Assembly: GCF_023700005.1 (NCBI RefSeq)
Contig: NZ_JAMLJK010000001.1
Coordinates: forward strand, 1,347,096 to 1,411,095
Direction of reading: 5' to 3'
Origin: Larsenimonas rhizosphaerae
Lineage (GTDB): Bacteria; Pseudomonadota; Gammaproteobacteria; Pseudomonadales; Halomonadaceae
DNA length: 64,000 nucleotides
Shown: positions 22,560-28,321 of the stretch, piece after piece
How positions within the stretch are numbered: position 1 is the stretch's first letter
Layout of the letters: the number at the start of each line of letters is the position of its first letter
Made by a program: the position numbers and the translations under genes
The notes under the pieces: generated by a model
Told to the model about the DNA's origin: nothing
What the model saw: the letters and a program-made list of their open reading frames with translations, nothing else
Database searches by the model: none

Positions 22560-22636
22560 AGGACCGTAGCTCAGTTGGTTAGAGCGCCACGTTGACATCG
22601 TGGAGGTCAGCGGTTCAAATCCGCTCGGTCCTACCA
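22560..22636 (+). tRNA. tRNA-Val(GAC), first copy
   Basis: 77 bases including an encoded CCA. Acceptor stem AGGACCG/CGGTCCT, D arm GCTC/GAGC, anticodon stem CCACG/CGTGG with loop TTGACAT giving anticodon GAC, T arm AGCGG/CCGCT with TTCAAAT. All stems pair fully. Confidence 0.97.
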
Positions 22637-22658: not shown

Positions 22659-22735
22659 AGGACCGTAGCTCAGTTGGTTAGAGCGCCACGTTGACATCGT
22701 GGAGGTCAGCGGTTCAAATCCGCTCGGTCCTACCA
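22659..22735 (+). tRNA. tRNA-Val(GAC), second identical copy
   Basis: Identical to the copy 22 bases upstream over all 77 bases, with anticodon GAC and encoded CCA. The two are probably processed from one transcript that ends at the terminator just downstream. Confidence 0.97.
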
Positions 22736-24884: not shown

Positions 24885-25697
24885 TTACTTCCAACCGGCA
24901 ACCGCGCCGCCCTGGAAGAGCTCCTTCGCTTTCTCGACAACAGTATCCGTCTGATAGGCTTCTACCAGATGCTTGATCTTTTCACTGTTCTCATCGCCCT
25001 TGCGAACAACGATCAGGTTGACGTATGGCGAGTCTGCGCCTTCACGAATCAGTGCGCTGCTAAGTGGCAGGCCGGCAGGTTGTGAATAGGTGCTGTTGAT
25101 GAAGGCCATGTCCACGTCATCCAGGGTGCGTGGCAGCTGAGCAGCGTCTATTTCGCGGAACTGGTAGTCATGCGGATTCTTTTCGATATCCATCGGCGTG
25201 GCGTTGAGGTTCGTGTTGTCCTTCAGCGTCAGCAGGCCTTCCTTGTCCATCAGGATCAGGGTGCGTCCTTCATTGGATGGATCATTGGGCAGGGCTACCG
25301 TGGCACCCTCCGGGATATCATTGATATCGGAATATTTCTTGGAATAGGCTCCGATAGGATACACAAAGGTGTTGCCGGCAATGGCGAAGTCATAACCACG
25401 GTCGTTGACCATGTTTTCAAGGTAGGGCTTGTGCTGATAGGCATTGGCATCAAGGCTGCCATCAGCCAGCGCCGCATTGGGCGAGTTGTAGTCCGTGAAT
25501 TCAACAATCTGAACATCGAGATCGTACTTTTCCTTGGCTACCTTTTTGGCCGCTTCCATGACACTGGTTTCGGGGCCGGCCATGGTGCCGACCTTGACAA
25601 CATTGTCATCGCTGGCGGTATCGCCGCCACAGCCTGCAAGGGTCATGGTGCCAAGCGTAACGGCAGCCAGTGCCATGGAACGAAGTGGAAAACGCAT
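24885..25697 (-). CDS. metQ: Methionine ABC transporter substrate-binding lipoprotein
   Basis: This 270-residue NlpA-family lipoprotein has the lipobox LAGC after the leader MRFPLRSMALAAVTLGTMT. It captures D/L-methionine for MetNI. The conserved VKVGTMAGPETSVME and QHKPYLENM stretches are visible. The ATG at 25697 has GGAGA before it; the 27 residues read from 25778 are not part of the signal peptide. It is the last gene of metN-metI-metQ and lies 46 bases after metI. Confidence 0.95.
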   Translation of the reverse strand: MRFPLRSMALAAVTLGTMTLAGCGGDTASDDNVVKVGTMAGPETSVMEAAKKVAKEKYDLDVQIVEFTDYNSPNAALADGSLDANAYQHKPYLENMVNDRGYDFAIAGNTFVYPIGAYSKKYSDINDIPEGATVALPNDPSNEGRTLILMDKEGLLTLKDNTNLNATPMDIEKNPHDYQFREIDAAQLPRTLDDVDMAFINSTYSQPAGLPLSSALIREGADSPYVNLIVVRKGDENSEKIKHLVEAYQTDTVVEKAKELFQGGAVAGWK

Positions 25698-25743
25698 AGT
25701 AAGTACTCTCCCTGCGAGTAAAAAGGTGAAGGCTTGCCGCCTT

Positions 25744-26397
25744 CTACTTATGACTGGCCTTTTTGACCAGTTGATCACCCAGTGTCTGGATGCCCTGGAC
25801 CATGATCACCAGAATGGCCACGGTGATAAGCATGATGACGGGTTCGAAGCGATTGTAGCCGTATCGAATGCCGACATCGCCCAGGCCGCCGCCACCCACT
25901 GCACCTGCCATGGCGGAATAGCTGATCAGCGTCACGGCAGTAATGGTGAAGCTGGTAATGATGCCACCCTTTGCCTCGGGAATCAGAACCTTGGTCATTA
26001 TCTGCCAGGGGGATGCCCCCATTGCCTGGGCTGCCTCGATCAATCCGGAGGGGATCTCGTTGAGCGCACCCTCGATCAGGCGAGCAACAAAGGGAATGGC
26101 AGCGATTGTCAGGGGAACCATTGCCGCATTGGTACCGATGGAGGTGCCGGCGATCAGTCGCGTAAAGGGAACGATGGCAACCATGAGAATGATGAAGGGA
26201 ATGGAGCGCCCGATATTAACGATGGCACTGATGATTAAAAAGGCCGGTGGGCATGCCAGGAAGCGGCCCGGACGAGTGGTATAAAGAGCCAGCCCCAGCG
26301 CCAGTCCCAGTACGCCGGAAATCAGCCCGCTGATCAGTACCATGTAAAGGGTCTGCAGTGTTGCCTGGCCAATCAATGTCATCATGCTACTCGACAT
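25744..26397 (-). CDS. metI: Methionine ABC transporter permease
   Basis: This 217-residue inner-membrane protein has about five hydrophobic helices and the permease loop EGALNEIPSGLIEAAQAMGA that docks to the ATPase. The N-terminus MSSSMM aligns with E. coli MetI (MSEPMM), so the start overlapping the metN stop by 11 bases is kept. Confidence 0.95.
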   Translation of the reverse strand: MSSSMMTLIGQATLQTLYMVLISGLISGVLGLALGLALYTTRPGRFLACPPAFLIISAIVNIGRSIPFIILMVAIVPFTRLIAGTSIGTNAAMVPLTIAAIPFVARLIEGALNEIPSGLIEAAQAMGASPWQIMTKVLIPEAKGGIITSFTITAVTLISYSAMAGAVGGGGLGDVGIRYGYNRFEPVIMLITVAILVIMVQGIQTLGDQLVKKASHK

Positions 26398-27421
26398 ATC
26401 CCAGTACCTCCGTGGTCAGTTGCATGGATTCAAGGTGGGCGAGTGCTGTTTGAATCTGGTGAGGACTGCCTCTGAATTCGGCGATCATCAGCCCCAGAGT
26501 GTGGCCCTGAATGTCTTCGATTCTTGCCTGCAGGATGCTGATGTCGAGTTCGAATTCTCGTGCCAGCTGCGAGATCAGCGGTGAAGAGACATTCTCGTCG
26601 TTGAAGACCAGCCTGACGATGGGGTGAGGTTTATCCGGCGCGCTGCTTTCCAGGCGTTCGCGCAGGGAGCGTGGCGGCTCGATACGCAGAAAGTCTTCCA
26701 GAAAGGCGCGCCCCAGCTCGGTACCCGGCCGCGTAAAGAAGGGGCCGACACGAGAGGTTTCCACCAGACGCCCATCACTGATCAGTGCCACGCTGTCGCA
26801 GATCGATTTAACGACTTCCATCTCATGTGTAATCAGCAGGATTGTCAGCCCCAGTTCCTGGTTGATCTCACGCAATAATTCAAGAATCGAGGTTGTTGTC
26901 TGAGGGTCAAGCGCTGATGTTGCTTCATCGCACAGCAGTACCTTGGGTCGACTCGCCAGCGCTCGTGCAATGGCTACACGCTGTTTCTGCCCGCCGGAAA
27001 GCGCTGATGGATAGTTGTCACGCTTGTCGGTCAGGCCGGTCAGCTCAAGCAGGGGCGTAATGCGCTGCTGGATTGCCGCCTTGTCGAGTCCCATGAGTTC
27101 CAGAGGAAAGGCGATATTACGGTAGACCGTACGGGAATCCAGCAAATTGAAATGCTGAAATATCATTCCAATATCGTGGCGTGCCTTTCTAAGGCCCTGT
27201 TCATCGAGGCAGGTCAGATCCTGACCGTCAACCCATACCTTGCCGCTGGTGGGGCGTTCAAGAAGATTGACGCAGCGGATCAGGGTGCTTTTGCCCGCTC
27301 CGGATACTCCAATGACGCCTGTAATACTTCCTTCGGGGACGTGAAGCTCCACATCCTGCAGGGCAGCAACCGCTGATTGGCCGGAGCCATAGAATTTACT
27401 GAGATGTTCAAGTCGTATCAT
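26387..27421 (-). CDS. metN: Methionine ABC transporter ATP-binding protein with C-terminal NIL domain
   Basis: This 344-residue ATPase has Walker [10 protein letters not shown], signature [15 protein letters not shown] and Walker [13 protein letters not shown]. The last 75 or so residues form the NIL (ACT-like) domain that binds methionine and shuts transport by trans-inhibition. It is first in the operon. Its Shine-Dalgarno is weak (CAGG). The 150-base leader holds a SAM-II-like riboswitch and a terminator, so transcription is expected to fall when SAM is high. Confidence 0.95.
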
Positions 27422-27463
27422 GGTGCCTGAGGGAAACCCTGTTCTTGAATGGGTGTTTGAGCA

Positions 27464-27491
27464 TAAAAAAAGCCACCCGTGAAGGGTGGCT
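27464..27491 (-). terminator. Leader terminator (attenuator) upstream of metN
   Basis: On the minus strand: stem AGCCACCC / GGGTGGCT with a 5-base loop, followed by seven T. It lies between the riboswitch and metN. Its 5' arm contains CACCCTT, exactly complementary to AAGGGTG at the 3' end of the aptamer. Confidence 0.9.
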
Positions 27492-27503
27492 CAACGCTGG
27501 ACA

Positions 27504-27562
27504 CACCCTTTTAGCAGTATTTGATAATGCGCCCCGCAATCCAGGTACAAATCGGCGCTAAA
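27504..27562 (-). promoter_or_regulatory. SAM-II-like riboswitch (SAM_alpha) in the metN leader
   Basis: Read 5' to 3' on the minus strand the conserved blocks occur in SAM-II order: GCGCC-GATTT, then ATTGC, then GGCGC closing stem P1, then AT-rich ATCAAAT, then GCTAAAAGGG forming the pseudoknot strand. These match the published SAM-II (metX leader) pattern block for block. A promoter lies a few bases upstream and an intrinsic terminator just downstream, with a 7-base antiterminator option. The known class binds S-adenosylmethionine and is best known from alphaproteobacteria. Match by eye, not by covariance model. Confidence 0.85.
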
Positions 27563-27573
27563 ATTGGAGCGCA

Positions 27574-27602
27574 ATCTTAGGAGGCTCGTCTCGCCCTGTC
27601 AA
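27574..27602 (-). promoter_or_regulatory. Sigma-70 promoter of metNIQ
   Basis: TTGACA (27602-27597), 17-base spacer, TAAGAT (27579-27574). The predicted start near 27567 places the riboswitch at the very 5' end of the transcript. Confidence 0.8.
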
Positions 27603-27706
27603 CGCGTGGCAGAATGGCAAGTATACACGGTTGTAGTGGGCTAAAGGGCGGTCACTGGCCGGATACATGGATAGGCCTTATTCAAAAACATGCGGGGAAG
27701 AGTGCG

Positions 27707-28321
27707 ATGTTTACAGGAATCGTTCAAGGATGTGCCGAGGTAGTGAGCGTTGAGTTGCTGCCCGGACTTTCCCGGCTTGGCCTGCGCCTGCCGGAGCATA
27801 TGCTGGAGGGTCTGGAGCTCGGGGCATCGGTGTCGGTTGATGGATGCTGCCTCAGCGTGACATCGATGAATGGGGCGATAGTCACATTTGATCTGATGCG
27901 GGCAACGCTGCACCTGACGACACTTGAAAAGTGCGAGCCTGGTCATCTTCTCAATGTCGAACGCGCGGCTCGATTCGGTGAGGATATCGGAGGGCATTTG
28001 ATGTCCGGACATATTTCATGTCGTGCCACCATCACCGAGCTGGATGTGGCGCCCAATAACCTCCGTATCTGGTTTAGTGTGCCGGACGGATTTCAGCGCT
28101 TTATTCTGGACAAGGGATATATTGGTATTGATGGCATCAGCCTGACCGTGGGAGCGCTGCGTGAAGGCGCCTTTTGCGTCAATTTGATTCCGGAAACGAT
28201 GGCGCGTACCACGCTGGCTGACAAGGAAATGGGGGATGAGGTCAATATCGAAATTGATCCTCAGACTCAGGCGATCGTGGAAACCGTTGAGCGAGTGCTC
28301 AAGACACGCAGTATGGTTTGA
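27707..28321 (+). CDS. ribE: Riboflavin synthase, alpha chain
   Basis: This 204-residue enzyme dismutates two molecules of 6,7-dimethyl-8-ribityllumazine into riboflavin. It starts with the family signature MFTGIVQG, and two lumazine-binding repeats follow (N-terminal with [15 protein letters not shown]-terminal with [11 protein letters not shown]). GGGGAAG precedes the ATG; the longer reading from 27614 overlaps the metN promoter and adds no homology. No FMN riboswitch or other rib genes are adjacent. It is divergent from metNIQ and possibly co-transcribed with apt. Confidence 0.93.

Follow-up and report, generated by a model that had tools for sequence, protein, structure and literature searches.

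The features considered here lie on the minus strand of a 64,000-nt stretch of Larsenimonas rhizosphaerae DNA (the window), where a leader precedes a metNIQ operon for methionine import. The three genes were assigned as follows.

24885 to 25778, minus strand: metQ/NlpA-type lipoprotein (Lipoprotein_9; TIGR00363 above cut-off)
25744 to 26397, minus strand: metI, permease (NF008049 MetI, above cut-off)
26387 to 27421, minus strand: metN, methionine ABC importer ATPase with a C-terminal NIL domain (ABC_tran and NIL; the best NCBIfam match is ABC_MetN, slightly below cut-off)

The true start of metQ is probably downstream of the start of its open reading frame. On the other side of metN, ribE (riboflavin synthase) is divergently oriented, so that no same-strand upstream gene accounts for the terminator in the leader. 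MetJ, the repressor of metNIQ in Escherichia coli, was not found in the genome by a search that recovered the E. coli control. Elsewhere in the window, two tandem tRNA genes with equal scores (22560 to 22633 and 22659 to 22732, plus strand) were the sole Rfam matches above cut-off in a default scan. In the order of transcription, the leader contains the following elements.

27597 to 27602, minus strand: promoter -35 hexamer TTGACA, read directly from the sequence
27574 to 27579, minus strand: promoter -10 hexamer TAAGAT, 17-nt spacer to the -35 hexamer, sigma-70 type
near 27567, minus strand: inferred transcription start, at the position expected from the promoter
27554 to 27558, minus strand: SAM-II P1 5' strand GCGCC (Rfam SAM_alpha alignment and covariation)
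27549 to 27553, minus strand: L1 GAUUU, third strand of the SAM pocket (G8, U10, U11, and U12 of 2QWY)
27543 to 27547, minus strand: pseudoknot P2a 5' strand UACCU (pairing and covariation tests)
27536 to 27539, minus strand: P2b 5' strand UUGC (U20, U21, G22, and C23 of 2QWY)
27529 to 27533, minus strand: P1 3' strand GGCGC (SAM_alpha alignment and covariation)
27516 to 27528, minus strand: loop L3 AUUAUCAAAUACU, 13 nt
27515 to 27506, minus strand: aptamer 3' block GCUAAAAGGG
27510 to 27515, minus strand: P2b 3' strand GCUAAA (G42 to A47 of 2QWY)
27504 to 27508, minus strand: P2a 3' strand GGGUG, common to the pseudoknot and the antiterminator
27491 to 27506, minus strand: linker GTGTGTCCAGCGTTGA, 16 nt, overlapping the end of GGGUG
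27482 to 27510, minus strand: 7-bp antiterminator hairpin, AAGGGTG (27510 to 27504) with CACCCTT (27488 to 27482)
27465 to 27491, minus strand: intrinsic terminator AGCCACCC-TTCAC-GGGTGGCT (27491 to 27471), then seven T residues to 27465

The complete riboswitch array (promoter, aptamer, antiterminator, and terminator) thus spans 27602 to 27465 of the minus strand, and metN starts 43 nt past its end. Promoter and terminator are each the sole site of their own kind between 27300 and 27800 (both strands scanned), and 66 of 84 distinct related leaders have a similar promoter 5' of the aptamer. A sequence-only reading had described this layout and was borne out in its particulars: the promoter (TTGACA-17-TAAGAT) by direct reading, the terminator with its T7 run, the 7-bp complementarity between AAGGGTG and CACCCTT, and the SAM-II block order GCGCC-GAUUU, UUGC, GGCGC, GCUAAAAGGG, with each block at its claimed place on the minus strand.

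Among 4227 Rfam families, SAM_alpha (RF00521) gave the top match at the locus (25.4 bits, E = 0.0015). In a SAM_alpha search of the 3.29-Mb genome, the locus was the best match by 10 bits (E = 0.0017; next match, E = 0.99), although its 25.4 bits fall below the gathering score of 36, and the element is therefore missed by default annotation. Same-locus orthologues in two relatives score above the Rfam cut-off (47.8 and 36.9 bits). Two custom covariance models were built: R1, from ten sequences including the window's own, and R2, from thirteen sequences, all from outside this genus. As an independent test, R2 recovered the element in its own genome with 66.7 bits (E = 3e-19, custom-model E-values being rough). 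Its second-best match (18.6 bits) was rejected as a second SAM-II since it falls within a coding gene, and the genome searches gave no convincing second copy. SAM-V (RF01826) and SAM/SAH were rejected, as neither matched 27200 to 27900 even with E allowed up to 10; the metN start codon lies ~80 nt past the aptamer, and P2a masks no Shine-Dalgarno sequence, as it would in SAM-V. Phe_leader and isrD matches at the locus were terminator look-alikes far below cut-off. All published SAM-pocket nucleotides, listed for 2QWY (PMC3764141) as G8, U10 to U12, U20 to C23, and G42 to A47, are present as GAUUU, UUGC, and GCUAAA.

The predicted structure is supported by covariation across a set of 62 distinct sequences, in which 91.1% of pair cells were standard. 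The covariation score was 0.351, compared with 0.157 in shuffles, and slid alignments were far worse. Two-sided changes occurred in 8 of 10 pairs overall: P1 was paired in 96.8% of cells with such changes in 5 of its 6 pairs, and pseudoknot P2a had them in 3 of 4. The P2a variants include ACCC/GGGU in most Halomonadaceae, UUCCC/GGGGAA in locus L013, and CCUU/AAGG in L102. Own pseudoknot partners paired better than swapped ones, with 60 of 5000 permutations (phylogeny ignored) doing as well. In most Halomonadaceae, L3 carries an extra hairpin of variable sequence and length.

The element is widespread in the family. R1 found it in 215 of 250 sampled Halomonadaceae genomes and in 46 of 342 sampled genomes of the order (E up to 1e-4). 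An exact pattern scan placed it in named Halomonas, Vreelandella, Chromohalobacter, Salinicola, Billgrantia, Onishia, Modicisalibacter, Aidingimonas, Litchfieldella, Phytohalomonas, and Larsenimonas. In 73 of 80 named loci metN follows immediately on the same strand; of the other seven, three are truncated by the locus edge and four come from Salinicola. A SAM-II aptamer with a terminator before metN is thus the rule within the halophilic Halomonadaceae and no oddity. This comparison of metN leaders, also suggested at the outset, shows that the blocks are conserved, and together with covariation it makes the SAM-II identity well supported. The aptamer is small and its score lies below the Rfam cut-off, as might be expected had the blocks come together by chance beside an ordinary terminator. 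Against this stand the R2 E-value of 3e-19, the 215 of 250 relatives, the covariation, and the lack of a same-strand upstream gene needing a terminator; conservation rules chance assembly out, and we give it a negligible probability. The locus is a real SAM-II riboswitch of the ordinary kind, which is under-annotated in this host group and before this target.

Placement before methionine or SAM genes is shared more widely, with metN downstream here and metN, metK, metA, or metZ in relatives. In GTDB Gammaproteobacteria, which include the former betaproteobacteria, R1 matched 172 of 369 sampled genomes (E up to 1e-5), and RF00521 exceeded its cut-off in 30. Most of the best class-level loci precede metZ, metK, or metN (downstream genes named by eye from sequence), with terminators present; L242, L244, L246, L247, L249, L251 to L253, and L258 have SAM-II and a terminator before metZ. 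In other families of the order, SAM-II precedes metK (family f27: L114, L117, and L119) or metA or a metZ-like gene (family f40: L113, L115, and L118). One Halomonadaceae genus (g20: L083 and L089 to L094) has tandem SAM-II pairs ~110 nt apart before other genes, an AzlC-like permease among them (L093); here a terminator comes after the first aptamer, and GCUAAAGCG pairs with an arm of it. Such tandems are not a novelty, 44 cases having already been described (PMC9481103). One 3-kb locus with a metK SAM-II leader also holds an SAH riboswitch (RF01057, L254:170-255, minus strand, 52.3 bits).

The arrangement of the leader suggests how it could work. As is common, though not universal, in SAM-II, the terminator excludes an antiterminator built on the aptamer 3' end. 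RNA polymerase would start ~8 to 10 nt 5' of P1. When SAM is plentiful, the pocket formed by GAUUU, UUGC, and GCUAAA would be filled and the H-type pseudoknot held; with GGGUG tied up in P2a, the AGCCACCC/GGGUGGCU hairpin and the U-run would stop transcription before metN. Under SAM shortage, P2a would open, leaving AAGGGUG free to pair with CACCCUU as the terminator 5' arm emerges, and polymerase would proceed into metNIQ. This is the switch that the sequence-only reading had proposed, and as a prediction it is well supported by covariation and conservation. Considering the sequence, homology, covariation, the conserved location ahead of metN, and the pairings that exclude each other, along with the lack of MetJ, we regard it as very probable that the leader is a SAM-II OFF switch that shuts down the metNIQ importer by ending transcription early; that SAM binds, which way it acts, and how fast the competing folds form are inferred.

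The competing pairings are partly particular to this leader and partly conserved. The 7-bp AAGGGTG/CACCCTT helix is specific to it, and the conserved core is the 5-bp GGGTG/CACCC. Other SAM-II leaders build the antiterminator from different letters: GCUAAACAG/CUGUUUAGC before metK in other clades, GCUAAAGCG/CGCUUUAGC in tandem copies, and GGUUUU/AAAACC or GCUAAA/UUUAGC in family f8. Aptamer 3' ends paired with their own terminator 5' arms over a mean of 6.4 bp, versus 5.6 bp when permuted (4 of 5000 permutations; phylogeny ignored). Folding energies were approximately -16 kcal/mol for the terminator and -11.5 kcal/mol for the antiterminator segment. In prefix folding without the pseudoknot, the antiterminator was the best fold at 84 to 88 nt, when the terminator 3' arm is still absent; at full length, again without the pseudoknot, the terminator was always favored, and the choice leading to the ON state is therefore probably kinetic.

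A true SAM-II aptamer could also act mainly on translation or RNA stability beside a constitutive terminator. This has a precedent in the metA leader of Sinorhizobium meliloti (PMC9373788), and some relatives keep the aptamer without an intrinsic terminator. However, the metN start codon, ~80 nt past the aptamer, is also past the terminator, which puts the ribosome site out of the pseudoknot's reach. In addition, GGGUG/CACCC is common to aptamer and terminator, and the complementarity is kept across clades while its letters change. We consider control of this kind improbable here. The termination platform is not universal, since a few relatives keep the aptamer before metN with no recognizable intrinsic terminator (L013, L016, L074, L077, L080, and L081); two of these, L013 and L016, contain different hairpins with which the pseudoknot would be incompatible.

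The linker GTGTGTCCAGCGTTGA is almost identical in all Halomonadaceae with the terminator (L009 to L012, L030 to L082, and L121 to L200); the named genomes in this comparison were picked by the linker pattern itself, and the anonymous set was chosen independently of it. A leader peptide (GTG TCC AGC GTT GA.) was rejected because third codon positions are equally invariant and no constant frame with metN is kept, and a repeated genomic element was rejected because the genome has a single exact copy. Pairing of the linker with the P1 5' strand, giving a third, SAM-independent OFF fold, would explain the conservation and appears in the ViennaRNA fold of the full leader (-33.2 kcal/mol, pseudoknot-free). 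In the eight leaders tested, though, linker-aptamer pairing was no better than with shuffled linkers (fractions 0.14 to 0.56), and we consider this fold improbable as well.

In Salinicola (L129, L153, L156, and L173), the SAM-II leader with linker and terminator is present, metN is missing at the locus, and its place is taken by an NCS1-like transporter gene (named from sequence) in convergent orientation. Linker and terminator were unchanged in 5 of 10 Salinicola genomes, altered in 1, and not found in 4, and in several species promoter, linker, and terminator are all unchanged. In Salinicola peritrichatus (L173 and L085), an L3 insertion splits the aptamer, with linker and terminator intact. 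Such persistence is consistent with selection for a role other than the control of metN. Because promoter, linker, and terminator persist without metN, even with a split aptamer, the terminated RNA (~100 nt, ending in linker and terminator) might also act in trans as a small RNA, a possibility that we rate as unlikely though ahead of either alternative fold or mode of control discussed above.

Placed against the literature, termination by SAM-II is expected. In Corbino 2005 (PMC1273637), SAM-II promoters are placed a few nucleotides ahead of P1, with terminators following P2. Barrick and Breaker 2007 (PMC2258182) reported SAM-II in gammaproteobacteria and, for alpha- and betaproteobacteria, terminators as its commonest platform; Huang and Lilley 2018 (PMC6061858) described translational SAM-II as rare. 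All three papers present terminators as frequent or usual in SAM-II, along with a promoter close in front of P1, and so contradict the initial description of SAM-II as often translational. The case had also been called unusual, which does not hold for the mechanism or the host class, since SAM-II normally carries a terminator and occurs widely in GTDB Gammaproteobacteria, but does hold in part for the target, as metNIQ looks under-reported. The methionine-regulation survey of Leyn 2014 (PMC4239095) placed SAM_alpha in Rhizobiales and Rhodobacterales only, with no SAM-II in its Oceanospirillales group; metNIQ is not among its SAM_alpha targets, and the importer target thus appears under-reported. 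Among openly accessible papers, none was found that connects SAM-II to Halomonas or to metN, and one may exist elsewhere. A large family using SAM-II for metNIQ fills the gap left by a survey without gammaproteobacterial SAM-II (PMC4239095). Rfam SAM_alpha, trained on alphaproteobacteria, misses most SAM-II found by the small custom model (30 versus 172 of 369 genomes), which leaves both the annotation of riboswitches and the mapping of regulons incomplete in GTDB Gammaproteobacteria. The metNIQ target and this annotation gap look like the under-reported parts.

The leader shares with the Agrobacterium metA and Sargasso metX aptamer (2QWY; RF00521) P1, the P2 H-type pseudoknot, and the pocket nucleotides (PMC3764141), and with RF00521 SAM-II in general a promoter a few nucleotides before P1, a terminator after P2, and a methionine or SAM gene downstream (PMC1273637). 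It differs from RF00521 examples in its metNIQ importer target, short P2a (UACCU/GGGUG), and sub-cut-off score, and most Halomonadaceae members differ further in the extra L3 hairpin and the near-invariant 16-nt linker before the terminator. The S. meliloti metZ leader (PMC9373788) likewise combines SAM-II with a downstream terminator predicted to be under SAM control, yielding an sRNA of ~100 nt, but precedes a biosynthetic gene in an alphaproteobacterium. SAM-V has the same fold and SAM pocket as SAM-II (PMC6061858) but masks the ribosome site, and in the SAM-II/SAM-V tandems of Pelagibacter it is the SAM-II part that terminates transcription (PMC9481103). The metXZ RNA element of betaproteobacteria resembles the leader in having a conserved-region pseudoknot and then a terminator, but lies on metX/metZ and was published as a new element (PMC4239095); since the SAM-II model finds metZ leaders in a class that includes betaproteobacteria, we suspect that it is an unrecognized SAM-II. 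In Firmicutes, SAM-I (S-box) is a SAM riboswitch on the same importer, metNIQ, with an unrelated aptamer (PMC12452182).
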